A stretch of DNA of 30,755 nucleotides, taken from positions 1 through 30,755 of the forward strand of contig JAJRTK010000240.1 in NCBI GenBank assembly GCA_024278345.1, given 5' to 3'. Position 1 is the stretch's first letter; every line of letters starts with the position of its first letter. The DNA comes from a bacterium (GTDB lineage Bacteria > CSSED10-310 > JAJRTK01). The translations under genes and the position numbers were made by a program. The notes beneath the pieces are model-generated. The model saw nothing but the letters and a program-made list of their open reading frames with translations, was not told where the DNA came from and made no database searches. Below, in pieces: positions 4,217-21,727 of the stretch.

Positions 4217-4290
4217 GGGAGCCGAAGTGGGCGCCGACCGACGCCCGCTGCTCGCCATTGTCGCCCTTCGACCCATTGATTCAGAGGAGG
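4217..4290 (-). repeat. Dispersed intergenic element, family 2 (copy B)
   Basis: On the minus strand this reads GGGCGACAATGGCGAGCAGC, nearly identical to copy A (4634-4729), then a hairpin with stem GGGCG/CGCCC. It lacks the GAGCGGAACGCAAC tail seen in other copies, so it is truncated or diverged at that end. It overlaps the last codons of the 4281-4613 gene and lies upstream of the histidine kinase. Confidence 0.7.
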
Positions 4291-4613
4291 AAAAGCGACA
4301 ATGCAGAAATGCTCAGCGAAGCTAGGAACAAAGTAACGACCCCCCCAGTCAGCTCAAAACCATCGACGAGCTTATGAGTCATCCAAAGCAAGAACGCATT
4401 GATGACCAACAAAAACATCCCGAAACTCAAGATGACGAAAGGAAGGGATAACAACACAAGCACATTAAACAAGAGTTTGTCCAAAATTGCATAGACAACC
4501 GCCACGACTACCGAAGTTCCAAAGCTCTTGACTTTGATTCCTGGTAAGAGATGGGCAATGACAAAGATTCCAATGGCAAGAAGAAACACATGAAAAAGCA
4601 TGGAAAACATCAC
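4281..4613 (-). CDS. Small integral membrane protein, YvlD / phage holin family 4 type
   Basis: A 110-residue protein made almost entirely of hydrophobic helices, about four (VFLLAIGIFVIAHLLPGI; VVVAVVYAILDKLLFNVL; LSLPFVILSFGMFLLVINAF; VVTLFLASLSISALSLFLL). The order of an N-terminal helix ending in LLPGI, a second helix, FVILSFGMFLLVINAFLLW, and a last helix is typical of the YvlD/DUF360 ('phage holin family 4') proteins. These are widespread chromosomal membrane proteins of unknown function; despite the name, nothing here suggests a phage. It could share a transcript with the downstream histidine kinase, although a family 2 repeat lies between them. Confidence 0.8.
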   Translation of the reverse strand: MMFSMLFHVFLLAIGIFVIAHLLPGIKVKSFGTSVVVAVVYAILDKLLFNVLVLLSLPFVILSFGMFLLVINAFLLWMTHKLVDGFELTGGVVTLFLASLSISALSLFLL

Positions 4614-4633
4614 GGACCCTCCAAGTTTCCGAA

Positions 4634-4729
4634 TTCCGGTGGTGCTCCAGCCCTAGGGCAATGGAGCGAAGGCGGCGACAATGGCGAGCAGCGGGCGCCG
4701 GATGGCGACCGATGTGAGCGGAACGCAAC
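4634..4729 (+). repeat. Dispersed intergenic element, family 2 (copy A)
   Basis: A long copy. It starts with CCGGTGGTGCTCC and TAGGGCAATGG, matching copy C (GGCGGTACTCC, TAGGGCAGTGG). It continues with GGCGACAATGGCGAGCAGCG, the hairpin region GGGCGCCGGATGGCGACC, and the tail GAGCGGAACGCAAC. It lies in the 274-base gap between the aminotransferase and the YvlD-type gene; the remainder of the gap has a T-run (4745-4754) but no clear terminator hairpin. Confidence 0.8.
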
Positions 4730-4887
4730 GCCAAGAAAACAAAGTTTTTTTTTGACAGCTCCGCCCTGAACGAAGAGCACGACCCGAATTTTTTTGGCAT
4801 CCACTTCGCCGGGACAACTCCACGATATGCGAGATTCGGATCGAGGACAAATAGTCCCAGCTAGGTGGAGGACCGACGACCCCGAAT

Positions 4888-6072
4888 CTAGCAAAGAACC
4901 GAGTTAAGACGCTCAATGGCATCCTTGAGCTGTGGTAGATCAACGGCCGTGAAACAGAGGCGCACAAAGCTTGAGAATCCGCTCCCGAACGCTTCTCCCG
5001 GCGCCAGAGAGACTCCTGCTTCAAGAGCTCGGTCGATGAAGGTCCAGACATCCGGGGCCATGAGCGACGTGTCGAAAAAGATGTAGCTCCCTCCTCGTGG
5101 ACGATGAAAAGGGCACTTCAGCCGACTCGTGACAAGGTCCAGGGCCTTCCGGTAGCGAAGCCGCGTCTCCTCCATCCAATCCCGACCGTCCACCAAAGCC
5201 GCCGCCGCCACGCGTTGGGCTAGGACCGGTACATTGTAGACCGAATGATTCGCGATTTTTTGCACCGTGCTCAGAAGGCGGTCATTCGCCACAAAATAGC
5301 CAACCCGCATGCCGCTCAGGGCATGGCTCTTGGAAAAGGTGTAGACGCTCACGACCTGGGAGGAGATCTCGTTCAGAGAGGCCATGCTCAGATGCTTTTC
5401 CCCTTCGTAAATATAGTCCTCGTAGGCCTCGTCAGACAGGACCCACAGACCGCGGTCCAGGCAAAGGCGGGCTAGGGCCTCAAGGTTCTCCCTGCCCAAG
5501 ACCATTCCCGTTGGGTTGTTCGGCGTATTGAGATAGAGAGCCGCCGTGCGATCCGTGAGATAGGGCCTGATGAGGCTTGTGGGATCTTGCTCTGGGTCAT
5601 CGAGGAGCGCACTATAGAAGGGAACATGCACCGGTGTTGCCCCGGTGCAAAGGATGATTCCCTGGATGAGAGGCCAAAATGGGGCGAGGACCAAGACCTC
5701 GTCACCGGGGCCGACCAGGGCCTGAGCACTACAAAAGAGGGCGTGCGTCGCTCCACAGGTGATCTGAACGGAGCGGGAATCGACCTCCTGGAAACCTGGT
5801 TTCTGGTGAAGACGCAAGATAAGGAGGTCGAGCAACTCGTCCAAGCCGTGGGGATGGCCGTAGGTATTGAGGTCCTCTGGCTTTACGGCACTGTTCCAGA
5901 TCCGAGAGGCTGCTTCCGGAGGGTGACGGTACGTGTCCCCGATGTGCAGTGGATGAATTTGCCCACGATAGCGTCGCATCTTTTGGGCAAGGGTGGCAAA
6001 GACCGAAGCGCGAAGAGGCTCGACTCGGGGGTGTTTCTTGGGATATCGCGGCATCTTGTTTTTTCCGGTCAT
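4888..6072 (-). CDS. PLP-dependent class I/II aminotransferase
   Basis: A 394-residue fold-type I aminotransferase of the aspartate aminotransferase superfamily. Visible motifs are YGHPHGLDELLDLL near the N-terminus, NTPNNPTGMV (substrate and cofactor binding Asn), SDEAYEDYIY (the Asp that pairs with the PLP ring nitrogen), and FSKSHALSGMRVGY with the Schiff-base Lys. FVRLCFT near the C-terminus carries the Arg expected to bind the substrate carboxylate. The amino donor cannot be told from sequence. Its ATG overlaps the stop of the Mur ligase by four bases (ATGA), so the two are translationally coupled. Pairing with a Mur ligase suggests provision of an amino acid for peptidoglycan or a peptidoglycan-like ligation, but this is inference. 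Confidence 0.9.
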   Translation of the reverse strand: MTGKNKMPRYPKKHPRVEPLRASVFATLAQKMRRYRGQIHPLHIGDTYRHPPEAASRIWNSAVKPEDLNTYGHPHGLDELLDLLILRLHQKPGFQEVDSRSVQITCGATHALFCSAQALVGPGDEVLVLAPFWPLIQGIILCTGATPVHVPFYSALLDDPEQDPTSLIRPYLTDRTAALYLNTPNNPTGMVLGRENLEALARLCLDRGLWVLSDEAYEDYIYEGEKHLSMASLNEISSQVVSVYTFSKSHALSGMRVGYFVANDRLLSTVQKIANHSVYNVPVLAQRVAAAALVDGRDWMEETRLRYRKALDLVTSRLKCPFHRPRGGSYIFFDTSLMAPDVWTFIDRALEAGVSLAPGEAFGSGFSSFVRLCFTAVDLPQLKDAIERLNSVLC

Positions 6073-7472
6073 GAATGGGAGTTTCGCGCTCGTTGCCCTA
6101 GCGCCGTAACCAGCGTTCGAGCCAGATCGGACAGAGTTGGGTCCCGCGCTCCAAGGAACAATACGCGGTCACCGGAGCGGGCTTGAGCGGAAAGGAATGC
6201 CAAGAGTTCTGGCCGATCCATCACGGCGGGTTCAGGAGCACCAAGGTCTCGCACGGCGGTTGCCAGGTCCTTGGAGGAAATTGTTCGATCAGCGGTTCCG
6301 CCAGCATCGAAGATGGGAAGTAGAATTAGCTGATCGGGCGTCTGGACTCCTTGGCTTAGGGCATCAGCCAGCTCGGCGAGGAGGAAGCGGGTAGGTCCAT
6401 AGCCATGCGGCTGAAAGATGATCCAGCGCGGCCCCCCTTCCGTCGCTTGCAGGACTGCGGCGATCTTGTGAGGATTGTGGGCATAATCGTCGTAGACCTC
6501 AACGCCCTCGGCGGTTCCCACTAGTTCCAAACGTCGGCTGAGCCCTCGAAATCCTGACAATAGATCGGCGACGGAAAGCAGGTCGATGCCGAGCTCGCGG
6601 CAGACCGCGATGGCAGCCAGGGCATTCTGGACATTGTACAGTCCCGGTACAGGCAAATGAAAAGAGACGCCAGCTACGGAAAATCGGCTTCCGGCGGCAG
6701 AGAGCTCCAGGGAGTTGGCGGCAGTGTCACCCTGCGTGATGCCGAAAAGGTGCCGCCGGGTTCCGTCCAAGGAGGCAGCCCGAGGACAATCGCCCCCCAA
6801 GATGACGACATCTTGGCAACGCCGAGCAAACTGCTGGAACAAGTCCATGAGCACGGACAGAGGCTGGTGGTCTTTGCTAATGTTTGTCACCACTCCCATG
6901 ACTGGATCGTAGCGAAGGAAGCTGCCATCGCTTTCGTCGGCCTCGATGACAAAAAGATCTCCACCTCCGGCCAGGGCCGCGGCGGCACGGTCTCCGATGC
7001 CATAAACTTCCGCTCCGCACATCAGGGAGGGATCGCAGCCAAGATGAAAAAGCAGGTAGCCGAGCATCGCCGTGACGGTGGATTTGCCACTGGTCCCCGC
7101 AATGGCGATTCCCTGCCGGCGCCCAAAGAGCTCCGCCAGGGCTTCTGAACGGTGAACCACGGGGAGAGCAAGCTGCCGGGCTCGCACGACATCGGGGTTG
7201 GTCTTTTCAATAGAGGAGGACAAGATCAGACGGTCTCCAGGGCGCGGGCCGGAACCATCTTGGGGATAGAGCTCTATCCCATGACCGCGAAGCTCCTCGA
7301 AACGCTGGATCCCCCGTGCGGCATCCAAGGCTCGATCCGAACCCGCCACCTGCCGTTCCTCCGCCACGAGTAAGAGAGCCAGGGGACGCATACCGCCGCC
7401 GCCAATGCCCACCAAGAAATCGCGTGTGGGCAAGCCGGCTCCGTTGGGCGGGAAAGGGGGGCCATCATTCAC
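6069..7472 (-). CDS. MurC/Mpl-type Mur ligase (ATP-dependent amino-acid ligase)
   Basis: A 467-residue Mur ligase with all three domains. The N-terminal fold has GIGGGGMRPLA (about 23-33), resembling the MurC signature GIGGxGM. The central ATPase domain has GTSGKST (about 126-132) and EADESDGSF (about 177-185), the latter characteristic of MurC/Mpl. The C-terminal domain has YDDYAHNPHKI and FQPHGYGPTRF. In MurC and Mpl the P-loop is usually GTHGKTT; here His is Ser and the first Thr is Ser. TNISKDH replaces the usual TNI-x-x-DH. It could be the organism's MurC, the recycling ligase Mpl, or a paralogue with another substrate. It starts with GTG, which overlaps the previous gene's stop (GTGA). 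Confidence 0.85.
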   Translation of the reverse strand: MNDGPPFPPNGAGLPTRDFLVGIGGGGMRPLALLLVAEERQVAGSDRALDAARGIQRFEELRGHGIELYPQDGSGPRPGDRLILSSSIEKTNPDVVRARQLALPVVHRSEALAELFGRRQGIAIAGTSGKSTVTAMLGYLLFHLGCDPSLMCGAEVYGIGDRAAAALAGGGDLFVIEADESDGSFLRYDPVMGVVTNISKDHQPLSVLMDLFQQFARRCQDVVILGGDCPRAASLDGTRRHLFGITQGDTAANSLELSAAGSRFSVAGVSFHLPVPGLYNVQNALAAIAVCRELGIDLLSVADLLSGFRGLSRRLELVGTAEGVEVYDDYAHNPHKIAAVLQATEGGPRWIIFQPHGYGPTRFLLAELADALSQGVQTPDQLILLPIFDAGGTADRTISSKDLATAVRDLGAPEPAVMDRPELLAFLSAQARSGDRVLFLGARDPTLSDLARTLVTALGQRARNSHS

Positions 7473-7753
7473 GGTTTCTCTCCAGCTCCAGAGAGCTTGT
7501 GAGCCAGGCGACCTCGCAAAACGCCCTGCTCGAAGATCTTGAAGTTCTTGACCAGAAACTCCTGGACACGCAACTCATCCTCCACCTTCGAGTCGCCACC
7601 CAACAGATGCTTGTAGGGAAGTTGCTTGCTCAACAAAACCTGGCCTTCGACGTAAATACGAACATCTAGAGTCAAGTCCTCCGGGAGATCCTCGATCTGG
7701 ACATGGTAGGTAACACCCTGAAACACCACGGTTTTGTTCACACCGACGATCAT
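7469..7753 (-). CDS. Small conserved protein of unknown function
   Basis: A 94-residue protein if it starts at the ATG at 7753, preceded by a GGATGG ribosome site; a GTG at 7774 would give 101 residues. The core GVNKTVVFQGVTYHVQIEDL looks like a conserved family pattern rather than chance, but I cannot assign a function. It is predicted to be beta-rich with no signal peptide or membrane helix, and is acidic in the middle. It is the first gene of a three-gene operon: its stop overlaps the Mur ligase start by four bases, so the products are probably made in proportion. Confidence 0.72.
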   Translation of the reverse strand: MIVGVNKTVVFQGVTYHVQIEDLPEDLTLDVRIYVEGQVLLSKQLPYKHLLGGDSKVEDELRVQEFLVKNFKIFEQGVLRGRLAHKLSGAGEKP

Positions 7754-7845
7754 GTTGATTCCATCCTGATCCACGTCCCCGCCAAAACCCGACTGGGCTC
7801 TTCGTTTTGGGCCGTGATTTTCGTTAAACCCTTTGCCCTATTTGT

Positions 7846-7937
7846 GTTGCGTCCTGCTCCCATCGGCGTCCATCCGACCGCCGCTACTCGCCCTTATCGC
7901 CCCTCTCCAACCACTGCCCTAAGCCCGGAGTACCGCC
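7846..7937 (-). repeat. Dispersed intergenic element, family 2 (copy C)
   Basis: On the minus strand it runs GCGGTACTCC, TTAGGGCAGTGG, GAGAGGGGCGATAAGGGCGA, then a hairpin with stem CGGCG/CGCCG around GTCGGATGGA, and ends GAGCAGGACGCAAC. The same order is seen in copies A and D. The stem bases differ from the other copies yet still pair. It lies in the 268-base gap between the surface protein and the small conserved gene. Confidence 0.8.
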
Positions 7938-8021
7938 TGAAACCAGGTTCCGGGGCTTTTGTGATCCAGAAATCCTGGTCCTTGCGGCCCCTGGACGAAA
8001 GGATCTGCCTCCCCAAAAGAG

Positions 8022-9806
8022 TCATGGAGCCGGAGACCGCGATTCGGCTCTTCTTCCGGTCGAGGCCGAAGGCCTCCCGCCCCGTGACCGGAACAGCGCC
8101 AAAACCGTGAGAATGCTCAACAGTAGCCAAAGGAACGTGGGCGAATCTCCGTTTGAGACGACTGGGCCGGCTGAAGGTGGCGGTGTCCCGTTGGCGCCCC
8201 CGCCACCGGGTGTCGCCGTTGGCGGTGGACTGGGCGGAGTGGACTCAAACCAGAGTACGAGGTGCGAGCTGCTGCCTCGGGGGGAGACATCGCCATAAAT
8301 CGCAATGACGTGATCTCCATCAAAAACCTTGATCACGCCCTTTGACTCGCTATTTTCGGTCCGGGAGAAGGTCAAGTTCATGCCCTGGGAGACACTATTG
8401 AAGATCCCGGTATTCGGGCCTGTTTCCCTGATGGTCACACCAAGTCCACCAAGGGTTGAGCTCACAAAGATACGGGCGAGTTGATATGTCTCGGGGTTGG
8501 TGTTGAGATTCGAGTCAAAGACCGTAATGACCGCCTGATCCCGTTCGCTGTAGAAGTTTTCCTTGTTGAAGAACACCCGGCCCACCGCCTTGGGATCACC
8601 ACAATCGAAAAGGGCGGCGCAGATGGAACGGCGGAGCAAGGTCGTCAGCGCACTGTTTCCCCCGCTCCCTTCCAGGGAAGCCAGGGGGAGAGCAAAGAAA
8701 AGGCTCTTGAAACTACCGCCATCATAAAGGAGCGCCGCGGGATTTTCCTCGTCATCCTCCAGCCAGGTCTGGCCCCGGTGCGTCAGGCGGTCCGCTTCCA
8801 CGATCATTGAGCCATCCGTGGCCAAATAGAACTCCATGCCATCCGTGAGAGTACCAGAACTCCCGGAAAGCCGAGCTCCCGCCCCCAGCACATCGTTCTC
8901 CACCGTCTCAACTCCAAGATAGACAGAGGCAAAACTCTGAGTCGAAAGAGGCCCGTCTAAATCTCCGCTCTCTTCGTACAGGTAGTCCTGACTCGCGAAG
9001 AGAAGTGATCCTCCTTGCTCACCAAGAAAAGACTCCAGCAACTGCAATTCTCTGAAAGTTAACGTCTCGGTGAAGGCTTCTCCCGTAAACCAGAAAAGGA
9101 CATCATAATCCCTTAGATCTTTCGCCGCCAATTGGTCGCTCGTTTCGACAGAAAACAGGAACCCTGCCTCCTCAAGAGCCTGCTCCATGATCCACGACCT
9201 GTCGGGAAGCGTTGGCGAGGCGTCGTCGTCCACAAGCAGCAACCTTGGCAGCTCCTGAGTCGGACTTGGTACGGGGGTGAACAGGGGAAATGGAGTTTCA
9301 GTCGCCGTGGGGGTAAAGACTGGTGTAGGCGTCATTGTCGGAGTCGGAGATGGCGAACCGGGCGAATAAGCAAACCAGGGGGCCGCAGCCGTGATTTGTT
9401 CGAAAGGGACTAGGTCCTGGTAGACCGCAGCCACCACGTCGCCATGCCCGACGAGAATCGTCGAGCTGCTTCCGGAGCTTCCTGAAACACTGAAATGGAG
9501 AGTTCCCGTGAAAATTGTCGAATTTTTGGAGATCTCGGTCAAGACAAGCTGGATGCCCACGGGATCCGAGTTCGAAAGAACGGAAACGACGACGGCCTGG
9601 GGGCTGCCTGGATCGGTATCAAGGTCCGCATCATCGAGTTGAACGACAGCCTGTGTACTTTCTCCGACGTATTGTGGCTGATCAAAGTCTAGAGTCGCCG
9701 CCGCCACGGGTTGCCAGCAAAAAAGCATCAGCCCTAGCAAAGAAGGACAACGCAAACCTGGAGCCCTCCGTTCATCCCTTATGTTTTGGAAGAAGATCTG
9801 TTTCAA
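8022..9806 (-). CDS. Secreted, C-terminally anchored beta-domain protein with Pro/Thr linker
   Basis: A 594-residue exported protein. The signal peptide ends near residue 36 (LLGLMLFCWQPVAAA). A beta domain (about 38-135) is followed by a Pro/Thr-rich linker (about 148-182, PTPTMTPTPVFTPT). A central domain (about 187-400) begins PRLLLVDDDAS and looks like a class I glutamine-amidotransferase-like Rossmann region without visible catalytic residues. A second beta domain (about 406-515) resembles the first: VFFNKENFYSERDQAVITVF compares with LDFDQPQYVGESTQAVVQL, and both have GDHV/GHGD-VIAIYGD/VAAVYQD endings. A Pro/Gly linker, a hydrophobic segment (PTFLWLLLSILTVLALF) and an Arg-rich tail then resemble sorting signals such as PEP-CTERM or MYXO-CTERM. 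The start is TTG overlapping the methyltransferase stop (TTGA); a TTG at 9755 behind GGAGG is an alternative. Function unknown. Confidence 0.8.
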   Translation of the reverse strand: MKQIFFQNIRDERRAPGLRCPSLLGLMLFCWQPVAAATLDFDQPQYVGESTQAVVQLDDADLDTDPGSPQAVVVSVLSNSDPVGIQLVLTEISKNSTIFTGTLHFSVSGSSGSSSTILVGHGDVVAAVYQDLVPFEQITAAAPWFAYSPGSPSPTPTMTPTPVFTPTATETPFPLFTPVPSPTQELPRLLLVDDDASPTLPDRSWIMEQALEEAGFLFSVETSDQLAAKDLRDYDVLFWFTGEAFTETLTFRELQLLESFLGEQGGSLLFASQDYLYEESGDLDGPLSTQSFASVYLGVETVENDVLGAGARLSGSSGTLTDGMEFYLATDGSMIVEADRLTHRGQTWLEDDEENPAALLYDGGSFKSLFFALPLASLEGSGGNSALTTLLRRSICAALFDCGDPKAVGRVFFNKENFYSERDQAVITVFDSNLNTNPETYQLARIFVSSTLGGLGVTIRETGPNTGIFNSVSQGMNLTFSRTENSESKGVIKVFDGDHVIAIYGDVSPRGSSSHLVLWFESTPPSPPPTATPGGGGANGTPPPSAGPVVSNGDSPTFLWLLLSILTVLALFRSRGGRPSASTGRRAESRSPAP

Positions 9807-10957
9807 TTAGGTTGTCCGTTCAAGTCGGGTCGTTTCCGAGCCACAAAGATCATCCCCAACGCACTCCCGCCAAAAAGCCGCCCAAGGGAAAGAGCAATCT
9901 TCATCAAAGGGCGATATCGAGGTTTGTTCAGCCTCCCCATCAACCAGTCGTAGTAGCGCCCCCTCGTCAACCAGTTCCCAAGGATTTCCAAGTAAAAGCC
10001 TTGGTAATCAATCACTTCGAAGCCGTTTTGCTCCAACAATTGATGGACCCGTTCGCAACTCATCTCACTGAGGTGGTCGGGACTAATAGGAGTCTTTGTC
10101 GCCGACAACCTGTTGGAAAGCCGATTGAGATTCGGGGTGGTCAAGATGAGAATCCCTTCTTTACCCAGAACGCGGCACCATTCCTCTAGGGTGGAACGGG
10201 GTTCTCTCACGTGCTCGATGATCTCGCCGGCAAACACGCCGGCAAACGAGGCATCGGAAAAGGGAACCCTTTCGCAATCCGCGACGATCCACTGGCGATG
10301 GGGTTGTTGCCGCCGTCGCCGACGCAGCAGCCCCTCGCCGAGATCCGTCAGGGTGAGGGAAAAAGGCCAGTCATCCTGGATCTCCAAGAAAAGGGAGTTC
10401 CCGCAACCAACATCGAGGACATTTGATTCCGGAGCAAAGTAGTTCTCGAAGAGCTGCTTCAGGATCCTGAGCTTGTACGCGTGGAGCGTAAGGAGGAAGG
10501 TATTGTTTTCCGTTGCATATCCGACGCCATCATGGAGGTCCTCATAGTAGGTTTTTAGAACCTCTGGATCTTTGTATTTCAGATAGATCGGCCGATTCTC
10601 CAAAATCCGGTTGCCTCGGTTTCTGGTGAGAACCATGACCTCCTGTATCGGGGCAAATTGGTAATTCTGGTTGAACCAAGCGTCGTCGGCTCTCCGCAGC
10701 TCATTCCCTACCAACAGGCGAACGCTTGCTTCGTCGATCTTCGTGAAATCCAGCTCCACCAATGCCTCCCCGGATCGAGGAGGATCGACGAACAGCCACC
10801 AACCTAGATGATACTGAGGGTGTTCGGCTTTCTGAAACCGGTAGATATCGATGGTGAGGCGAAGCCCCTTTCGAACGGAACGATTGAGAACCACACGAAA
10901 GTTCGAGCGCCCGCCACGCAGCTCGATATCCTGATCGGGAAGTTGAACAAAGGCCAT
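9803..10957 (-). CDS. SAM-dependent methyltransferase with an extra N-terminal domain
   Basis: A 384-residue protein. Residues about 175-320 form a class I methyltransferase of the Methyltransf_11 type: motif I VLDVGCGNSLFLE binds the SAM methionine side, an acidic residue follows in TLTDLGEGLL, then FAGVFAGEIIEHVREP (motif IV region) and GILILTTPNLNRLSNRL. The first 140 residues (IELRGGRSNFRVVLNRSV; YHLGWWLFVDP) form a separate domain I do not recognise. Family members with an EHV-x-x-P motif often act on quinones, sugars or lipids; the substrate here cannot be read. Its stop overlaps the start of the surface protein gene, so it may modify that protein or its attached glycan, as inference only. 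The M23 gene lies 89 bases upstream. Confidence 0.85.
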   Translation of the reverse strand: MAFVQLPDQDIELRGGRSNFRVVLNRSVRKGLRLTIDIYRFQKAEHPQYHLGWWLFVDPPRSGEALVELDFTKIDEASVRLLVGNELRRADDAWFNQNYQFAPIQEVMVLTRNRGNRILENRPIYLKYKDPEVLKTYYEDLHDGVGYATENNTFLLTLHAYKLRILKQLFENYFAPESNVLDVGCGNSLFLEIQDDWPFSLTLTDLGEGLLRRRRRQQPHRQWIVADCERVPFSDASFAGVFAGEIIEHVREPRSTLEEWCRVLGKEGILILTTPNLNRLSNRLSATKTPISPDHLSEMSCERVHQLLEQNGFEVIDYQGFYLEILGNWLTRGRYYDWLMGRLNKPRYRPLMKIALSLGRLFGGSALGMIFVARKRPDLNGQPN

Positions 10958-11046
10958 GACGCAGCCCCTCTACCACATGCAAACCGTCACACAAGCCCAA
11001 TGAGTATACGAGCAACCTCGCGTTTGAGCCAAACCCGATATCCGGG

Positions 11047-13831: not shown

Positions 13832-13867
13832 GGCGTTTGCCCGGTGGAGAAAATCGAAAAGAAATGT

Positions 13868-13896
13868 AGGGTATGGAAAGACCCCTCCAAAGTCAA
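13868..13896 (-). promoter_or_regulatory. Candidate sigma-70 promoter for the DHH phosphoesterase gene
   Basis: On the minus strand TTGACT (13896-13891), a 17-base spacer, then TACCCT (13873-13868), about 37 bases before the ATG at 13831. The -35 is good and the -10 is weak. Confidence 0.4.
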
Positions 13897-14308
13897 AGGC
13901 GATGGGTCGATGGCCAGCGTTCCTTCCATTGGCTCCTTACTTTCCCACCCCGGAATGTGGCAAAACCATCACATTACGATGAAGCCAGCTTCTACCTCGC
14001 CACGGCGAGGCAGAGGCTGTCGTCCTCCTTCCTCCGGACTCTGAGAAGTGTCTCCGCTTCTCCACCCCGACAAAAACAGGAGTTCGAAGGATAAGAAAAA
14101 AACTTCACCTTGATAATCGACTATTTCTAAAGGCATTTCCAGGCGTCACACCATTGGATTGTGTTCTCGCGGTGTAACAATCTTGTCACCAAAGAAGCGA
14201 TTCGCTCAATCCAGTTTCGAGGCATACAGAAACCAAGAAGTCGAAAACAATTCAACGACAGTGAGTTTCTAGCTTTGGCTCAATAAATGCAACAAGGCAT
14301 GGCAATCG

Positions 14309-14336
14309 TTGATTTGTTGCTGTGTTTTTCTATTTT
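14309..14336 (+). promoter_or_regulatory. Candidate promoter for the subtilisin-like protease gene
   Basis: TTGATT (14309-14314), a 16-base spacer, then TATTTT (14331-14336). It is about 45 bases before the ATG at 14381, in an AT-rich stretch. Confidence 0.35.
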
Positions 14337-14380
14337 TCATGCCGCAACCGGCGAGATTTCGCATTTTAGGAGACGACCTC

Positions 14381-15919
14381 ATGAAGTTTTTCGCAAAGTC
14401 CTTCTTGGTAGTGGCCTTGGCCCTTACCTCCACGGTGGCTCTGGCGCAGAAGGCTGGGGAGATCATCCCGGGCAAGTGGCTCGTGGGTTACGATGCCACG
14501 CAAAGAGCTGCGGTGAGCATCCTGAGCGCTGATGTTGAAGCACTGGGTGGCAAGGTGTCAGCGGATATCCCCATCGCCAATGCAGTGGCTGTCGAAATGT
14601 CGGCAACAGCCGTAGAAGAACTCCGCCGAAATCCAGCCGTCCTTTATGTTGAGCCGGATCGCTATGTCGTCGCGTTCGGGACGTTGAATCCCGGCCCCTT
14701 CCTGGTGGGCGAAGTGCGACCGTACGGAATCGATATGGTCAATGCCCCGGCCGCTTGGAGTGTGACCAAAGGAAGCGGAGCCAAGGTTGGCCTTCTCGAT
14801 ACGGGTTACGATCTCAACCATGAAGACATGGTCAACATCGCCGGTTCCAAGAGCTTTGTCGGCGGCTCGGTGCAGGATGGAGCGGGGCACGGGACGCACA
14901 CCGCGGGCACGATTGGTGGCCCGGAAAACGGTGTCGGAGTTGTCGGTGTCGCGCCGCAGGTTTCCCTCTACATCGGGAAGGTTCTCTCTGACAGCGGCGG
15001 TGGCTCACTCTCCGGAATCGCTTCAGGGATCAACTGGGCAGCGGGGCAGGGTGTGAACGTCATCAGCATGAGTCTTGGTGGCCCCAGCGGCTCGTGGACG
15101 ATGGAAACGGCTTGTAACAATGCGCGCAACGCTGGCGTTTTCGTGGTCGCCGCAGCGGGTAATGACAACACCTCTACAAAATCCTATCCCGCCGGTTATG
15201 CATCGGTTTTCGCGGTCATGGCCATTGACCAAAACAAGGAAAAGGCTTCTTTCTCCAACTACGGGGATTGGGTAGATGTTGCGGCGCCTGGCGTGGGAAC
15301 TCTCTCCACGGTTCCCATGGGGACCGGTGGCAGCGCCAACACCATTTTCTCCGGTGCAAACCATGACAGCAACGCAATCCAGGGAAGCCAGACGGGAACG
15401 GTTGCGGCCTCCGTTTACGACTGCGGCCTTGCCAACGGCACGGGCGGTTCCTGCCCGGGTGCCGTTTCCGGAAACATTGCCCTCATTCAGCGCGGTGAGA
15501 TCTCCTTCGCTGACAAGGTTGCCCATGCTGAAGCAGCCGGTGCCGCAGGCGTGATTATCTACAACAACGCTCCGGGCAACTTCAACGGAACTATCGGCGA
15601 TGCAACAACCGCTTTGGTAGCCGTATCGATTTCCCAGGAAGACGGCCTGGTTCTCCAAGGCCTGGGCGATGGCGCCTCTGCCACACTCTCCTTTGAAGCG
15701 GACAACTACTCGAAGTACAGTGGAACTTCCATGGCTTGCCCGCACGTGGCTGGCGTCGCGGCCCTCCTGATGGCAGCAGCCACGGGCACGGTGAGTGTGG
15801 ATCAGATCGAAGCCGCCCTCATCAACACGGCTGAGGATCTTGGCAGTCCCGGAAAAGACAACACCTTCGGCAACGGCCTCGTGGATGCCAATGCCGCACT
15901 GGGTTACCTTGGTTTCTAA
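14381..15919 (+). CDS. Secreted subtilisin-like serine protease (S8) with PA-type insert
   Basis: A 512-residue preproprotein. The ATG at 14381 follows an AGGAG ribosome site and begins a clear signal peptide (FLVVALALTSTVALA, cut near residue 22). Residues about 30-95 form an inhibitor I9-type propeptide. The S8 domain starts near 115; the catalytic triad is visible as D140 (GLLDTGYD), H170 (GHGTHTAG) and S450 (YSGTSMACPHVAG), with the oxyanion Asn in AAAGNDN (about 261). Between about 335 and 440 a protease-associated-like domain is inserted (NIALIQRGEISFADKVAHAE; AAGVIIYNNAPGNF), as in cell-envelope and some thermostable subtilases. There is no C-terminal anchor, so it is probably released. 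It is monocistronic: its own promoter region lies before it and a strong terminator after it. Confidence 0.95.
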   Translation: MKFFAKSFLVVALALTSTVALAQKAGEIIPGKWLVGYDATQRAAVSILSADVEALGGKVSADIPIANAVAVEMSATAVEELRRNPAVLYVEPDRYVVAFGTLNPGPFLVGEVRPYGIDMVNAPAAWSVTKGSGAKVGLLDTGYDLNHEDMVNIAGSKSFVGGSVQDGAGHGTHTAGTIGGPENGVGVVGVAPQVSLYIGKVLSDSGGGSLSGIASGINWAAGQGVNVISMSLGGPSGSWTMETACNNARNAGVFVVAAAGNDNTSTKSYPAGYASVFAVMAIDQNKEKASFSNYGDWVDVAAPGVGTLSTVPMGTGGSANTIFSGANHDSNAIQGSQTGTVAASVYDCGLANGTGGSCPGAVSGNIALIQRGEISFADKVAHAEAAGAAGVIIYNNAPGNFNGTIGDATTALVAVSISQEDGLVLQGLGDGASATLSFEADNYSKYSGTSMACPHVAGVAALLMAAATGTVSVDQIEAALINTAEDLGSPGKDNTFGNGLVDANAALGYLGF

Positions 15920-15941
15920 GAAGCTAGCCTAGGACATCGAA

Positions 15942-15977
15942 GACAAGTGGCCGTCCCTGCGGGGACGGCCACTTGTC
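15942..15977 (+). terminator. Rho-independent terminator with a perfect 16-bp stem
   Basis: GACAAGTGGCCGTCCC (15942-15957) pairs perfectly with GGGACGGCCACTTGTC (15962-15977) around the loop TGCG, 23 bases after the protease stop. The following bases are GTTTCG, only a short T-run. The symmetric stem could also stop transcripts coming from the right. Confidence 0.85.
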
Positions 15978-16119
15978 GTTTCGGGGAGCCCGCAAAGGGA
16001 CAATGGGGAGACACGCGCTCAATCAGATACGCGGCGTAGAGGCGCGGAGGAAACCGTTGAACTCAGCCGGCCCCGGTCAGCGGTGACAACCTTCGAGATC
16101 TCACTGTCGTCAGCCCCCG

Positions 16120-16180
16120 GTGAATCTTAGGAAGGGCGCCGGGGCCTTCGGCCCTGACCCGGCGGAGGCTCCGGCGACCA
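16120..16180 (+). repeat. Hairpin block related to family 1, without the 23-bp array (copy 3)
   Basis: It aligns with 18473-18535: GTGAATC, then GCGCC-(A/G)-GGG, TTCGGCCCTG, CCCGGCGGAGG and CTCCG in the same order and spacing. The first hairpin is GGGCC/GGCCC around TTC here and CCAGGG/CCCTGG in the other copy. It sits between the protease terminator and the end of the receiver-like gene. Confidence 0.72.
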
Positions 16181-16191
16181 CGGACGCCAAC

Positions 16192-16713
16192 TCAGCCCAT
16201 CTCTTCGAGGTGTTTGACGATCGTTTCCTGGAGCCGTTCCGGATTGCTCCTCACCACTAGGCGGTTGGCCCGGTACTGCTTGAGTTGGAGCATCAGGGCA
16301 GGGGGAGGACTCTGGTCGGCCAACACGAAAATCGGGACTTTATCGTCCATGGAGCGCATTAGACGGAGAACTTGGACAACATCCAGCCCACCAAGATTCC
16401 GATCAAGAAGGATGAGGTCGAAACTGGTTTGGCTTTTGAAAAGCTTGCCAAGCTCCCCGACGGCAGCGTATCCATCTCCAACAGCGACGATTTGGTGTCC
16501 TTCGGCGGAAAGCCAATCACTCAACTTGACGCGGAAAGCCTCGTCGTGATCGACTAGAAGGATGTAGCGGGTACGCCAGACACCACTGACGCGCCCGGAG
16601 TCAGCCGGGGCAACTCGACCGCCACAAATACTACAGAAAAGGCCTTCGGGAGTTTGGGTAAAATGCGCGCTCCCAAAGCCGCAAGTACACTGCCTGTCAC
16701 TATCTTGGCTCAA
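16192..16713 (-). CDS. Zinc-ribbon protein with a receiver-like domain
   Basis: About 173 residues if it starts at the TTG at 16713, behind a G-rich ribosome-like stretch. The frame is open into metK, so the true start lies somewhere between 16713 and about 16798. An N-terminal CxC...CxxC pattern (C9, C11, C27, C30) suggests a zinc ribbon. It is joined to a CheY-like receiver: YILLVDHDEAF has the acidic pocket and LILLDRNLGG the phospho-acceptor Asp. The usual Thr/Ser is Ala (VLADQS), and the conserved Lys of the K-P motif is replaced (VRSNPE), so it may be a pseudo-receiver. There is no output domain. It lies 85 bases downstream of metK on the same strand and may be co-transcribed. Partner and function unknown. 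Confidence 0.7.
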   Translation of the reverse strand: MSQDSDRQCTCGFGSAHFTQTPEGLFCSICGGRVAPADSGRVSGVWRTRYILLVDHDEAFRVKLSDWLSAEGHQIVAVGDGYAAVGELGKLFKSQTSFDLILLDRNLGGLDVVQVLRLMRSMDDKVPIFVLADQSPPPALMLQLKQYRANRLVVRSNPERLQETIVKHLEEMG

Positions 16714-16798
16714 AACAAAGCCCCCCAAAAGTGCGCCGCCGTAAGAGTCGTTCAGGCCGGCAGGAGAAACCTTACCGGCCTCGATAAAGCACCCGGTG

Positions 16799-17956
16799 CT
16801 AGGCAGACTCGCGAACCGCACTTTGCAGGTCGTCCAAAAGGTTGGTTTTTTCCCAGGTAAACTCGTCTTCAGTGCGGCCAAAGTGCCCATAAGCCGCTGT
16901 CTTTTCGTAGATGGGCCTGCGAAGATCAAGTTCCCTGATAATGCCCGCCGGTGTCAAATTAAACACCCTGCGAACGGCCCTTTCCAGGATCCTCGAGTCG
17001 ATTTCGCTGCTCCCGAAGTGGTCGATGAGCAAAGAGACTGGTTCCTCCACACCGATGGCGTAGGCAAGCTGGACCTCAATCCTGCTGGCGAGGCCGGCAG
17101 CTACAATGTGCTTGGCGATCCAACGAGCTGCATAGGTGGCCGACCGATCAACCTTGGAAGGGTCCTTCCCAGAAAACGCGCCACCACCATGGCGGCCCAT
17201 ACCGCCGTAAGTATCGACGATAATCTTCCGGCCCGTGAGGCCTGCGTCCCCTTGAGGCCCGCCAACGACGAATCTACCTGTGGGGTTGATGTGAAAGAGG
17301 GTCCTCTCGTCAAGGAGATGCTTGGGCACGATCTTCTCGATCACCTTGTCGATGATATCCGCTCGGAGATCTTTCATCCCGATATCAGGGCTGTGCTGGC
17401 TCGAAATGACTACTGTATCAACCCGAGTGGGCTGGCTTCCATCATATTCGATGGTCACCTGGCTCTTCCCATCGGGGCGAAGGTAGTCAAGAACTCCATC
17501 TTTGCGGCACACGGCAAGTTGTCGGACGAGCTTGTGGGCCAACGAGATGGGAAGAGGCATGAGCTCCGGAGTCTCGTTGCAGGCGTAGCCAAACATCAGT
17601 CCCTGGTCTCCGGCGCCGCCAGTATCCACGCCCATGGCGATGTCAGGAGACTGTTCGTCCAAGGAGGTAAGAACAGCGCAGGTCTCAGCATCGAACCCGT
17701 ATTTCGCCCTGGTGTAACCGATGCGGCGTATCGTGTCGCGGGCCACCTTTGGAATATCGGCGTAAGTGTTGGTGGTAATTTCGCCGGCAACGACGACCAT
17801 TCCAGTCGTTACGAGTGTCTCGCAGGCAACGCGGCCCATGGGATCCCCGGCCATGACTGCGTCGAGAACCGCATCGGAGATCTGGTCCGCTATCTTGTCG
17901 GGGTGGCCCTCGGTCACCGATTCGGAGGTAAAGAGGAATCGTTCACGGTCTGACAT
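16799..17956 (-). CDS. metK: S-adenosylmethionine synthetase
   Basis: A 385-residue full-length enzyme that makes S-adenosylmethionine from methionine and ATP. Signatures include [20 protein letters not shown] at the N-terminus, [12 protein letters not shown] (adenosine and metal binding), and [17 protein letters not shown] with the P-loop-like Lys. The C-terminus YGHFGR, then FTWEKT, is also typical. The ATG at 17956 is chosen because GGAG lies eight bases upstream; a TTG directly before it is ignored. It has its own good promoter and a leader of about 160 bases. The product would supply the methyltransferase encoded at 9803-10957 among many others. Confidence 0.97.
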
Positions 17957-18117
17957 CAAAAGATCTCCAAATACAGAATCCTAAAAGTGGGTCTCGGCCA
18001 GTCCCAGTTTCTCCGTTTTCGCACGGGGTCACGTCAACACGACGGGGCGCAATCGGTAAGGCAAATTCCACCGTCATCGATCTCCGCCCTGGAACAGGGA
18101 CGATTCCATGCATGGAA
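17957..18117 (-). other. Long 5' leader of metK
   Basis: About 160 bases between the inferred transcription start and the metK ATG. I looked for SAM-binding riboswitch cores and found none I can support. A small hairpin CCCTG/CAGGG and other short inverted repeats are present. The leader has an open short frame without similarity that I recognise. It may regulate metK by an unknown device. Confidence 0.4.
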
Positions 18118-18123
18118 ACAAAA

Positions 18124-18152
18124 TTGATAACCCCTTTTCTCTTGGAAGTCAA
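18124..18152 (-). promoter_or_regulatory. Sigma-70 promoter of metK
   Basis: On the minus strand TTGACT (18152-18147), an exact 17-base spacer, then TATCAA (18129-18124). Transcription would start near 18117. Confidence 0.65.
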
Positions 18153-18203
18153 CTCTCTTCGAACTGAAAATGGCATCTCACGGCCCTTGGACGAGATCCA
18201 GTC

Positions 18204-18264
18204 AGGCGAGCAATGATAGGCGAACGGCGCGCAACGGCCGTGAGCGACGTCAGCGGAACTCAAC
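18204..18264 (+). repeat. Dispersed intergenic element, family 2 (copy E, diverged)
   Basis: A diverged copy, recognised by AGGCGAGCAATGATAGGCGA at the start and CAGCGGAACTCAAC at the end, with the same length as copies C and D. It lies upstream of the metK promoter, about 110 bases before the second 23-bp array. Confidence 0.6.
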
Positions 18265-18370
18265 CTCCGATAGAGCCCACTATGATCTGGGATTTCAGTC
18301 TGGTAGGCTTTGGACGACTACCGGACTCGGTCATGGGAGGTGCCTTCGGCAGCTCACGCTGTCGCTCGGC

Positions 18371-18423
18371 GGGTCACGTTTGCGTGACTCGAAGGGTCAC
18401 GTTTGCGTGACTCGAAGGGTCAC
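18371..18423. repeat. Second array of the 23-bp palindromic unit (family 1)
   Basis: Two perfect units (18378-18400 and 18401-18423) preceded by a partial one (GGGTCAC, 18371-18377). They are identical to the units at 1-138. The copy number differs (six or more against two), so the array expands or contracts. Confidence 0.95.
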
Positions 18424-18535
18424 GCCGTGCGTTACCCGAAGGTCGTTCGGGGATTCCTTCCCCGGCCACCCAGTGAATCCATCACAGCGCCAGGGATTTC
18501 GGCCCTGGAACCCGGCGGAGGAGGCCTCCGAACCA
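18424..18535 (+). repeat. Hairpin block after the second array (family 1, copy 2)
   Basis: In order: GCGTTACCC (18429-18437), hairpin GGGGA/TCCCC (18449-18453 with 18459-18463), GTGAATC (18473), hairpin CCAGGG/CCCTGG (18490-18495 with 18503-18508), and hairpin CGGAGG/CCTCCG (18516-18521 with 18525-18530). It resembles the blocks at 139-230 and 16120-16180 and lies 75 bases before the NAD(P)HX repair gene, so it may be in that gene's leader. Confidence 0.75.
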
Positions 18536-18610
18536 CCGCCAGAAGCGCTGGGCTTTGGGAGGATCGGACGATGACCGACACCGACTCTGCCTATCCCGTG
18601 GGAGGAAAAG

Positions 18611-20158
18611 ATGCAAAAAGTGGTGACTGGCCTTGAGATGCAACATCTGGACAAGCGCAGTATTGAGGGAGGCATTCCCAGTCTGGTCTTGATGGAAAAT
18701 GCAGCCCGCGGAGCGGTGGATCTGGTCGTTGAGGAGATGGGTCTGCCTTCTCGGGTCTGGATCGTTTGCGGTGGAGGGAATAATGGGGGAGACGGGCTGG
18801 CCATGGCTCGGCACTTCCACAACCGGGGAAGTTCCCGTGTGGAAATCCTACTCTTGGGGAAGAGGGCACGCCTTTCCCCAGATGCCGCGGCAAATCTGAG
18901 GATGCTGGAGCTCTCCGACGTTCGGATCGAGGCCCGCGAGACCCAGAAAAGCGTGAGGACTTGGCTGTCTCGGGAGCCGGCACCGGAGTTCCTTGTGGAC
19001 GCCATCATGGGGACGGGCCTGCGAGCAGCTGCTCGGGGTCTGGCATCGGACGCTATCGAGGCGATTTTGAGTCGGCCCGAGCTCAGAGTCGTCTCGGTGG
19101 ATTTACCCTCCGGTCTTTCGGGGCAAACATCGGTGGTGCCGGGACGAGCCCTGGTTGCCGACTTGACCTTGACCTTCGGCCTACCAAAGGTGCCTCACTT
19201 CGTCTTTCCCGCCGCGGCCCACTGCGGGAAAGTGCGGGTCATCGAAATCTCCATACCAACAAAGTTTCTGGACGAAGCAGAGGCGACTTACTGGACCGGT
19301 GCCCCGCACCCCTTTTGGCTGCCCACGCGACCACAAGATACGCACAAGGGCAATTACGGGCGATTGCTCATCGTGGCTGGATCTCGCGGCCTTACCGGGG
19401 CGGCCTGTCTGGCTGCCGAAGCCGCCGTGCGCGGGGGAGCGGGTCTCGTCACCGTAGCTACCCCGGACAACGTGCATGAGATCATCGAGCAAAAGACCAC
19501 GGAGTCCATGAGCATCCCGCTTCCCACGGGCATCGATGGCGGCCTCAGATTGGACTGTGTCCAAAGAATTCTTGAGGCCATGGGCACGAAAGCGGGAACC
19601 CTCTTGATCGGCCCCGGCCTGGGAACGGCGCCATCCACCGCTCAAGTGGTCCGGCGAGTGCTACAGCAAGCCGACGGTCGGGTCATCCTCGATGCGGACG
19701 GCCTCACCTGCCTGGCCCAAGCCGGCGATCCCGCGGCGCTCCTTGCCGAAAGACCCGCCGCGACGATCCTGACGCCTCATCCCGGGGAAATGGCTCGCCT
19801 TCTGGGCCGCCGGGTAAGCGAACGACTGGCCGATGCCAAGAACTACGCGGCGCAATCACGCTCCGTCGTCGTGCTCAAGGGCGCTGGAACAGTCATCAGC
19901 AACGGTCGGTCTTCCTTCGTGCTGAACGTGGGCAATCCGGGGATGGCCTCTGGAGGCACGGGAGACGTCCTGGCCGGTCTCATCGGAGCCCTAGTGGCCC
20001 AAAACCTATCGGCATTCAGGGCGGCGGTGCTGGGTGGCCACCTCCACGGCCTGGCGGGCGACCTTGCAGCGGAAGAAACGGGCCAGGAAAGCCTGGCGGC
20101 CAGAGACCTCATCACCTGGCTGCCACAGGCCTGGCGCCATTGGAAAAACCAGACGTAG
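18611..20158 (+). CDS. nnr: Bifunctional NAD(P)H-hydrate epimerase / ADP-dependent dehydratase
   Basis: A 515-residue fusion that repairs damaged hydrated NADH and NADPH. The N-terminal epimerase (YjeF-N, about 1-215) has the GGGNNGGDGLAMARH loop and SVDLPSGLSG. The C-terminal dehydratase (about 230-510), a ribokinase-like fold, has KGNYGRLLIVAGS, TPHPGEMARLLG and NPGMASGGTGDVLAG, the last holding the catalytic Asp. All expected motifs are intact. The ATG at 18611 follows a perfect GGAGG ten bases upstream. The next gene in the same direction starts 233 bases later with a family 2 repeat in between, so co-transcription is uncertain. Confidence 0.95.
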   Translation: MQKVVTGLEMQHLDKRSIEGGIPSLVLMENAARGAVDLVVEEMGLPSRVWIVCGGGNNGGDGLAMARHFHNRGSSRVEILLLGKRARLSPDAAANLRMLELSDVRIEARETQKSVRTWLSREPAPEFLVDAIMGTGLRAAARGLASDAIEAILSRPELRVVSVDLPSGLSGQTSVVPGRALVADLTLTFGLPKVPHFVFPAAAHCGKVRVIEISIPTKFLDEAEATYWTGAPHPFWLPTRPQDTHKGNYGRLLIVAGSRGLTGAACLAAEAAVRGGAGLVTVATPDNVHEIIEQKTTESMSIPLPTGIDGGLRLDCVQRILEAMGTKAGTLLIGPGLGTAPSTAQVVRRVLQQADGRVILDADGLTCLAQAGDPAALLAERPAATILTPHPGEMARLLGRRVSERLADAKNYAAQSRSVVVLKGAGTVISNGRSSFVLNVGNPGMASGGTGDVLAGLIGALVAQNLSAFRAAVLGGHLHGLAGDLAAEETGQESLAARDLITWLPQAWRHWKNQT

Positions 20159-20169
20159 CACGCTTCCAG

Positions 20170-20247
20170 GGCAGGTACCCCTGATCTTGGAGTGATGAAA
20201 GGCGAGTGGCGACGGACGGATTGCCGTCGCCGCGAGCGGAACGCAAC
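20170..20247 (+). repeat. Dispersed intergenic element, family 2 (copy F)
   Basis: It begins GGCAGGTACCCC and CTTGGAGTGATGA. It has the best hairpin of the family: GGCGACGG (20207-20214) pairs with CCGTCGCC (20223-20230) around an 8-base loop. It ends GAGCGGAACGCAAC, identical to the tail in copies A and D. It sits between the NAD(P)HX repair gene and the carbamoyltransferase gene. Confidence 0.8.
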
Positions 20248-20391
20248 CTAGGCTTTTCTCGAAGCTGTTTTGAGGGAGCTTGATCGATTTGACCTGGGCC
20301 GCGAAGCGTAGTACCGGCCAACTCTTCCGCCGCGAGGGCGGCGGATCGTCCATTCAACCGCGGTTTCCGCCGCAACGGCAGGAGGCATCCC

Positions 20392-21534
20392 ATGAATCGC
20401 GTTCTCCCCAACGAACTTGCTCTCGAACCAAAGGCCGTCGAACAGCTCCGGGGGCGGAGCCTGCTCACGACCAAGGATTGGGGGCAACCAGAGCTGGAAA
20501 CACTCCTCGATCTTGCCCGCGCCTTCGAAACCCTGGACAAGATGGGGAAGCGGACCGAGCTTCTTCGCGCCGAGCTGGCCTACGCCCTCTTCTTCGACCA
20601 GTCCACTCGAACAAAGTCCGCATGGGCTGGAGCGGCGGCACGCCTTGGAATGCTCCCGGTCATCGTGGACGGCGAAACAACACAGCTTTCCCACGGCGAA
20701 ACCGGCGTCGAAACAGGTGCAATGCTGGGAATGAATTCCCATGCCCTGGGCGTTCGCCACGACAAGGTGCTGGGCGAGGGCCGAAAACTCCTCCGCGACC
20801 TGGAAGAGGGAATCGGCGACTATCTGGCCGCCACCGGTTCGAAGCGATCCGTGCCCATCGTCAACCTTCAGTGCGATCTGGATCATCCCACTCAAACCCT
20901 GGCCGACTTGCTCTGGCTTCAGGAAAAGCTCGGAGACCTCTCCGGCCGCAAGATCGCGGTCACTTGGGCTTTTTCACCATCCTACGCGAAACCGCTCTCG
21001 GTGCCACAGGGGCTCTGCATGCTGCTTACCCGCTTTGGAGCGGAAGTCACACTCGCCCATCCAGAAGGTTACAATCTTCTACCCGAATCTCTGGATGCGG
21101 CCCGTTATTTCGCCAAACAATCAGAGGGAACATTTCGCGTTGCCAACACCATGGAAGAGGCATTTGAGGGTGCGGATGCCGTCTATCCCAAAAGCTGGGG
21201 CCCACTGGATCTCATGAGATCCCGCGTGGAAGTCGCAAGGGACGCCAAGGCGCTCGCAAAGCTGGAACGGCTGGCCTTGGAAAGGAATGCCGCCCACCGA
21301 AATTGGATCTGTGACGCGAGACAGATGGCTCGGACCAAGGATGGCTCGGCCCTCTATATGCACTGCCTGCCCGCGGACATCGGCGATGAGGTCTCTCCGA
21401 CCGTCATGGACCGGTATCGCCTGGACGTGGCCCGACAAGCGAACAAAAAAGTCTACACCATCATGGCTCTTTTGGCGGGAGCCAAGGTTTCAAATCTGGC
21501 CGAAAAACTGCTGCGGATTGCCGACAACTCCTGA
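20392..21534 (+). CDS. ygeW: Knotted carbamoyltransferase, YgeW family
   Basis: A 380-residue aspartate/ornithine carbamoyltransferase-superfamily enzyme. Carbamoyl-phosphate binding residues are visible as STRTKS (71-76) and DHPTQTLADL (about 164-173), with HCLPAD near the C-terminus. TWAFSPSYAKPLSVPQGLCM, LAHPEGYNLLPE and YPKSWGP follow E. coli YgeW closely from memory, and not ArgF, PyrB or N-acetylornithine transcarbamylase. YgeW proteins are knotted carbamoyltransferases; their amino acceptor is not established. In enterobacteria the gene lies in a purine-catabolism cluster. Here none of those partners is visible. A GGAGG ribosome site precedes the ATG. Confidence 0.85.
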   Translation: MNRVLPNELALEPKAVEQLRGRSLLTTKDWGQPELETLLDLARAFETLDKMGKRTELLRAELAYALFFDQSTRTKSAWAGAAARLGMLPVIVDGETTQLSHGETGVETGAMLGMNSHALGVRHDKVLGEGRKLLRDLEEGIGDYLAATGSKRSVPIVNLQCDLDHPTQTLADLLWLQEKLGDLSGRKIAVTWAFSPSYAKPLSVPQGLCMLLTRFGAEVTLAHPEGYNLLPESLDAARYFAKQSEGTFRVANTMEEAFEGADAVYPKSWGPLDLMRSRVEVARDAKALAKLERLALERNAAHRNWICDARQMARTKDGSALYMHCLPADIGDEVSPTVMDRYRLDVARQANKKVYTIMALLAGAKVSNLAEKLLRIADNS

Positions 21535-21566
21535 CTAGGGCCACAAGAAGCTGCTTTTCTCCGTCT

Positions 21567-21660
21567 GTTGCGTTCCGCTCTCATCGGGCGCAGTCCGTCG
21601 CCCGCTGCTCGCCAATTTCGCCCCTCTCCCCATCGGTCGTCCCGAAAACCGAGTACCGCT
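21567..21660 (-). repeat. Dispersed intergenic element, family 2 (copy D)
   Basis: On the minus strand: GCGGTACTCGG, then GAGAGGGGCGAAATTGGCGA, GCAGCGGGCGACGGACTGCG, and the tail GAGCGGAACGCAAC. The hairpin stem is GGGCG/CGCCC. From GAGAGG to the tail it is the same length (63 bases) as copy C. It lies between the carbamoyltransferase gene and the TetR promoter. Confidence 0.8.
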
Positions 21661-21727
21661 CGCGCTTCCCCCGATCCTGTCACACAGCGAAAGAGAGACT
21701 CCCGGACGATCCTTGTATGCCCAAAGC

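Follow-up and report, generated by a model that had tools for sequence, protein, structure and literature searches.

A family of short intergenic repeats with a compensated hairpin core in the genome of an uncultured bacterium

RESULTS

Six copies in the window and several hundred in the genome

The window analyzed here, contig JAJRTK010000240.1 (30,755 nucleotides; C164 in our numbering), is one whole contig of an incomplete 6.06-Mb genome assembly in 550 contigs (GCA_024278345.1) from an uncultured bacterium. An earlier note, made from the sequence alone, had singled out six places in it as copies of an intergenic element built around a compensated hairpin, here designated copies A to F (Table 1). 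A covariance model (R1) built from 40 cores of the genome recovers all six, with the next-best match in the window at an E value of 0.11, which places them in one family with a common model; a pattern search also recovered copies B, C, E, and F. The score of copy A is weak (18.7 bits, E = 0.0023, at 4219 to 4258) because this copy is truncated and stops after the hairpin. The places first proposed are real, but the coordinates then given cover only the center of each element, and the full units of copies B, C, E, and F reach further (Table 1). A block reading TAGGGCA-TGG, which had been described as best in copies A and C, is actually best in B and C, and copy A is without the GAGCGGAACGCAAC tail.

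These six are members of a family of about 800 short, gene-less repeats dispersed between the genes of this one bacterium. When 1.353 Mb, or 22% of the genome, was surveyed with a profile hidden Markov model (E < 0.01), 177 elements were found, and none in the reversed sequence. The resulting density of one element per 7.6 kb, equivalent to an estimated ∼790 copies making up 1.6% of the whole genome, is possibly somewhat high, as many survey contigs were picked for carrying a match; the first round, which included 40 contigs taken by number only, left the figure unchanged. DNA searches of the genome seeded with copy B and with copy E each returned at least 40 strong matches. Family elements were also seen at, or within ∼100 bases of, the starts of four contigs (C45, C511, C15, and C489), which suggests that the repeats probably broke the assembly and that the copy number may be underestimated.

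Intact copies are bounded by terminal inverted repeats and an 8-bp target duplication

The blocks noticed at first form the center of a larger unit of 146 to 150 bp, sometimes ∼170 bp, that ends in imperfect 23-bp terminal inverted repeats (GGTYGTG...AGGGCA). The terminal-repeat pattern gave 28 matches, compared to none in the reversed control. Two main subfamilies share the center and differ in their arms: units of the B type start with GGTGGTGCTCCAGCCCTAGGGCA and have a 3′ end complementary to GGTCGTGCTCTTCTTTTAGGGCG, while those of the E type carry GGTYGTGGTACGCTTTCAGGGCA and GGTYGTGGGACTCCTGCAGGGCA. Among 83 candidates defined by their terminal repeats, some of them false, direct repeats at the flanks stand out at a length of exactly 8 bp (z = 9.6), and all other lengths from 4 to 14 bp remain at |z| ≤ 1.8. 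At least 7 of the 8 flanking bases match in 15 of the 83 candidates (for example, AGAAGATC at L041, CGGTTTCT at L043, GGAATCCT at L072, TGAAACCG at L010, and GGAAGGCC at L048), and the duplicated target is roughly palindromic (S-R-A-A-W-T-C-S). A duplication of 10 to 13 bp was considered and dropped, since fixing the ends gave exactly 8 bp. In the window, remnants of the duplication flank copies B and C (Table 1). The terminal repeats were also examined as a possible compensated stem, and this was rejected: the two arms of the same copy agree at 12.43 of 23 positions and arms taken from different copies at 12.05 (standard deviation, 0.22), so that belonging to one copy does not make two arms more similar, and compensation is confined to the core hairpin.

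Terminal inverted repeats together with an 8-bp duplication are the signature of a DDE-type transposase, and the units are too short to hold a transposase gene. The intact copies are therefore miniature inverted-repeat transposable elements (MITEs) inserted by a DDE-type transposase. They show terminal inverted repeats in the range of ∼15 to 30 bp, a duplication of fixed length, a noncoding unit within 70 to 300 bp, and many dispersed copies, in agreement with the published definition (70 to 300 bp with terminal inverted repeats of 15 to 30 bp; PMC3733652). The earlier suggestion of a repetitive extragenic palindrome (REP) or a MITE-type element thus holds for its second half in the intact copies, which are MITEs rather than REPs.

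The core hairpin varies by paired changes and shows a strand asymmetry

Within the survey, conservation is highest in the head (GGCGAG) and tail (GAGCGGAACGCAAC) of the core (0.92 to 0.97), intermediate in the hairpin (0.81 to 0.85), and lowest in the terminal repeats (0.64 to 0.75). The core had at first looked extremely conserved, in part through ascertainment, and its conservation was therefore retested on the survey set and on a set selected by terminal repeats; the order was the same in the latter (0.90 and 0.92 versus 0.75 to 0.79), which still required a recognizable tail. Cores fall into length classes of 31, 32, 33, 34, and 56/57 bases, the longest of which contains a second, inner hairpin. 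Of 114 cores, 112 have a GA/GA internal loop and 69 a G.A mismatch at positions 9 and 30. Positions 6 to 9 read GTAG, GCAG, or GTGG and pair and covary with the 3′ side.

Across 40 distinct cores, 82.5% of the stem cells are paired, compared to 67.3% after shuffling, and both sides have changed in 65 cells, compared to 27.6. The covariation score of 0.446 falls to 0.187 upon shuffling and does not exceed 0.224 with a slid partner, a control that keeps the relatedness among copies and yet leaves the separation intact. Different stems still pair (GGCGGCGG/CCGCCGCC, GGGCG/CGCCC, CAGGTGCGGG/CCCGCACCTG, and others), as had been noticed on the six copies alone. Wobbles in the stem are strongly asymmetric, with 39 G.T and 3 A.C, while unpaired conserved columns show 26 C-to-T and 23 G-to-A changes (Fisher p = 2e-5, an inexact value). 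The two strands would be equivalent in a double-stranded cruciform; the excess of G.T therefore places the relevant structure on the + strand, as RNA or single-stranded DNA. Consensus units fold strongly as RNA (z = −3.0 and −5.0). The paired changes and the wobble counts argue for a hairpin that is under selection for shape and is read on one strand only, and the asymmetry reinforces the original argument from compensation to selection on structure.

Many cores lack recognizable ends

Two recognizable terminal repeats were found around 32 of 151 anchored cores and none around 87, with a single one in the remainder. The end-less cores are still paired and still conserved, and the similarity around them falls to background ∼9 bases upstream and ∼14 bases downstream of the core. 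This could reflect either erosion of the ends around a retained core or movement of some cores without them. Mosaics that combine parts of the B and E types (8 of 32) show that copies exchange sequence. Another dispersed repeat, around GGGTATCCACGTACCATGAAAGTACATGG or GTGGATACCCG, was seen in L285, L092, L248, L276, and L025 and several times adjoins an end-less core. Nested insertion likely removed the ends of some copies, such as the one beside the GTGGATACCCG repeat in L025.

Elements lie between genes without a preferred direction

With genes called by a simple codon-usage caller, 27% of element midpoints fall inside a called open reading frame (ORF), compared to 86% of random positions, and most of those inside sit at the very ends of ORFs, as would be expected if starts were misplaced. 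Convergent, divergent, and tandem gene pairs all have elements between them. Of the elements in tandem gaps, 34 run along the direction of the genes and 23 opposite to it (p = 0.18), and the end-less copies are divided similarly (32 versus 26, p = 0.51). The occurrence of copies in both orientations, noticed originally in the window, is thus borne out. Hundreds of copies beside unrelated neighbors in both orientations exclude a gene-specific leader, as the earlier note had argued. The placement described there, intergenic save for a slight overlap of copy B with a gene end, needs correction, in that copy E also starts in the terminal bases of the upstream NAD(P)H-hydrate dehydratase gene (18611 to 20158), over its stop codon, and copy F covers the final ∼19 bases of a carbamoyltransferase gene (20392 to 21534).

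Candidate enzymes

When the sampled DNA was searched for longer elements bounded by the family's terminal repeats and flanked by a target duplication, only chance-level matches came up. Three candidate parents were rejected: the IS256 family is absent from the genome, an ISL3 fragment has different ends (GGCTCTTCGC), and a C-terminal ISAs1 fragment on C373 is unconnected to the ends of the family. An IS1595-family element, degenerate or broken and spread over several contigs, has ends GGCTCTATATGCGATCCAGGGATCT that share with the E type the leading GG and CAGGG at positions 17 to 21. The two ends (GGCTCTATATGCGATCCAGGGATCT and GGTCGTGGTACGCTTTCAGGGCA) agree at only 9 of 23 positions, which falls short of what a MITE mobilized by this element should show. 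Another member of the IS1595 family, ISApl4, has been reported with 8-bp direct repeats (PMC12561309). We regard an IS1595-type element as the best candidate mobilizer and as a lead. Its copies at L281, L282, L014, L074, and L284 have 25-bp ends that are identical between copies and are mostly cut by contig ends, and the one at L281 is truncated by a B-type MITE.

A REP-associated tyrosine transposase (RAYT), which the earlier note had suggested looking for, is present as a single gene in the genome (C390:22522-23232). It matches NF047646 at E = 1.3e-18 (67.3 bits, below the cutoff of 80) and PF01797 at 30.2 bits (above the cutoff of 23). Exactly at its 3′ end lies a diverged E-like core (R1, 29.9 bits, E = 2e-7) that can be folded by eye as CUG-G-CGC-GA-ACC-GGAU-GGU-GA-GCG-A-CAG, the architecture of the family, with an E-like 3′ arm. 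Since 2 to 5% of genes have an element that near, this adjacency is suggestive only. No similar hairpin was found alongside relatives of the RAYT elsewhere. The RAYT reading frame (L059:1300-1460) contains, between its conserved parts, two in-frame direct-repeat copies with the palindrome GGCGGGTTCGGAACCCGCC, which is rare elsewhere in the survey.

Distribution and novelty

Model R1 at E ≤ 0.001 found no member in 59 other genomes, a set that included seven from the phylum of this bacterium and none from its class. With laxer filters, these seven and nine named metagenome-assembled genomes (MAGs) yielded nothing beyond weak scores, the best at E = 0.02. The family had no match in collections of plasmids, phages, and viral contigs or in Rfam at the gathering score, and a permissive Rfam search returned only chance matches far below the cutoff. 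The family is probably lineage-specific and undescribed, the latter as the earlier note had supposed.

Features of the window and other repeats

TABLE 1 Members of the repeat family in the window
Feature	Position	Strand	Description
Copy A	4217-4290	-	Truncated; 5′ inner arm and hairpin (GGCGAGCAGCGGGCGTCGGTCGGCGCCC), without conserved tail and terminal repeats; found by R1 and alignment
Copy B, full unit	4638-4784	+	147 bp, B type; 5′ end GGTGGTGCTCCAGCCCTAGGGCA, 3′ end GAGCACGACC; terminal-repeat pair score 44/46 (L001:1539-1685); homologous copies genome-wide
Copy B, conserved core	4683-4729	+	GGCGAG, hairpin, GAGCGGAACGCAAC; R1 73.3 bits; pattern search
Copy B, left 8-bp flanking repeat	4630-4637	.	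CGAATTCC; matches right repeat at 6/8
Copy B, right 8-bp flanking repeat	4785-4792	.	CGAATTTT
Copy C, full unit	7791-7937	-	147 bp; core 7846-7892; flanking repeat 5/8; R1 64.5 bits
Copy D	18204-18268	+	Core whose stem differs but still pairs (ACG/CGT, G.A mismatch, CGC/GCG); no recognizable terminal repeats; R1 38.8 bits at 18217-18268
Copy E	20151-20299 (about)	+	E-type unit with its core at 20201-20247; match of 18/23 in the 5′ terminal repeat; degenerate 3′ end with an estimated boundary; R1 70.9 bits
Copy F	21516-21661 (about)	-	Unit; core 21567-21613; ends inferred by length; R1 72.5 bits

The carbamoyltransferase has its nearest relatives in uncultured delta-/Myxococcales-like MAGs (60 to 67% identity). 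Two other genes of the window gave matches below the respective cutoffs, 7469 to 7774 to the N-terminal domain of RomY (E = 4e-9) and 8022 to 9740 to a portion of a model for an anammox S-layer protein (E = 9e-22, a score far short of the cutoff).

Other repeats were seen in the window and elsewhere in the genome. A second mobile family with ends like GGCCTTGGTCATCGTTTCGGCCACC occupies ∼18450 to 18600 of the window (assigned by eye) and L065:3212-3413, where it is flanked by an exact 8-bp duplication (GTTGAGTT); the 1.35 Mb contain 35 to 42 similar end sites. Short repeated palindromic units occur at 18370 to 18440 of the window (GGTCACGTTTGCGTGACTCGAAG) and, elsewhere, as tandem GCCGAGCGGAGCGCGGCGTTGCCC (L096, L072, and L027). 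A dispersed motif, (GTTGTCAACC)GGATCTGATAGGTCC or TTGATAGGTCC, has ∼26 to 35 sites in the 1.35 Mb (L039, L043, L049, L058, and others).

DISCUSSION

The repeats are probably a lineage-specific MITE-type family in which a DDE-type transposase acting in trans inserts the intact units and the center is a conserved structural module. Under this model, each insertion of a unit of 146 to 150 bp with its imperfect 23-bp terminal inverted repeats duplicates 8 bp of a roughly palindromic target. The module comprises ∼70 bases, an extended hairpin closed by G-C pairs with a GA/GA internal loop and a covarying stem, usually with a further G.A mismatch, followed by a CGGAY-type loop, the conserved tail, and an A-rich stretch. 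Its shape is kept on one strand only and is still found in copies that have lost the terminal repeats. The core may be conserved, most economically, because a protein recognizes the folded strand, be it single-stranded DNA or RNA, and the RAYT is one candidate for such a protein.

Several observations weigh against this account. The sampled DNA of this incomplete genome yielded no full-length element that combines these ends with a transposase gene. Two recognizable ends are present in only a minority of copies (32 of 151), so the MITE origin of many others is inferred. Anchored searches favor copies with a good head and tail, and the strand and covariation counts are uncorrected for relatedness, which inflates them and makes the Fisher value inexact. 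Gene conversion between copies, to which the mosaics would testify, could also hold the center uniform. Carried further, this last point gives a reading in which the repeats are decaying MITEs of no current function, their centers homogenized by conversion, which would spare the ends beside unique DNA, and their hairpins kept paired by template-switching correction of palindromes. Conversion leaves unexplained both the excess of G.T over A.C and why the stem varies in pairs while the neighboring head and tail are nearly fixed, and we hold this to be the least probable of the explanations.

The end-less cores bear on another alternative, namely that what moves is the ∼70-base core itself, read as folded single-stranded DNA by the single RAYT of the genome, that a MITE later captured a core, and that the copies without ends are independent insertions. 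The limits of conservation around the core, the 87 end-less cores, and the diverged core adjoining the only RAYT gene would fit such a history. TnpA-REP enzymes recognize one folded strand, with stem mismatches needed in Escherichia coli (PMC8266576), a requirement that resembles the strand bias of the family core. A classical unpaired GTAG is apparently absent here, the GTAG-like bases at positions 6 to 9 being paired, and close pairs are rare (four within 400 bp). Intact copies carry an 8-bp duplication and terminal repeats that, to our knowledge, are not produced by RAYT-type enzymes. The lone core beside the RAYT could be there by chance, and the absence of a similar hairpin beside RAYT relatives elsewhere also speaks against the link, although REPs diverge fast. 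Cores that retain one end only fit erosion. We consider a REP-type origin unlikely. A composite repeat, in which a REP-like hairpin spread both alone through a single-strand RAYT and as the center of a DDE-type MITE, appears unlikely as well, and if true, it would join two unrelated transposition systems in one family.

Paired changes, tolerance of G.U on one strand, the conserved GA/GA loop, and the strong fold of the consensus units would also be expected of a cis-acting RNA element kept at its present sites, for instance a hairpin with a role in mRNA stability, processing, or termination of the kind suggested for the ERIC and NEMIS repeats, and bacterial MITEs can act as transcribed hairpins (PMC3733652; PMC2267715). 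Such an element should favor the sense strand of its neighbors, yet despite the strand-specific structure no such bias appears, even in the end-less copies, and Rfam has no match; this explanation is improbable to about the same degree as a REP-type origin. A MITE-type family with a conserved central module is thus the reading we prefer. MITEs are usually judged by their ends, while here the center is the best-conserved part and its fold is kept after the ends are lost. With dozens of intact and end-less copies, natural compensated stem variants, and a single RAYT gene as a candidate reader of the core, the family offers a test case for why bacteria keep hundreds of intergenic hairpins.

Compared with known systems, the family shares with bacterial MITEs (RUP, NEMIS/Correia, ERIC, YPAL, and Nezha) a short, noncoding, hairpin-folding unit dispersed between genes, and ERIC of Vibrio cholerae has also lost its terminal repeats (PMC2267715). 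It differs from them in that no sequence relation was seen, the central hairpin is better kept than the ends and is strand-specific, and no parent element with matching ends was found. With REPs and their RAYTs it has in common hundreds of intergenic hairpins with stem mismatches, strand specificity, and a single RAYT gene with a member at its 3′ end; in contrast, its intact copies lie inside 146- to 150-bp units bounded by terminal repeats and flanked by an 8-bp duplication, and it is apparently without the unpaired GTAG and rarely found in close pairs. The IS1595 family resembles it in the 8-bp repeats, the GG start, and CAGGG at positions 17 to 21, while agreement extends to only 9 of 23 positions and the known copies look degenerate or interrupted by contig ends. 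MITEs and REPs are both known kinds of repeat; what is unusual here is a strand-specific compensated core that outlasts the ends of the element carrying it.

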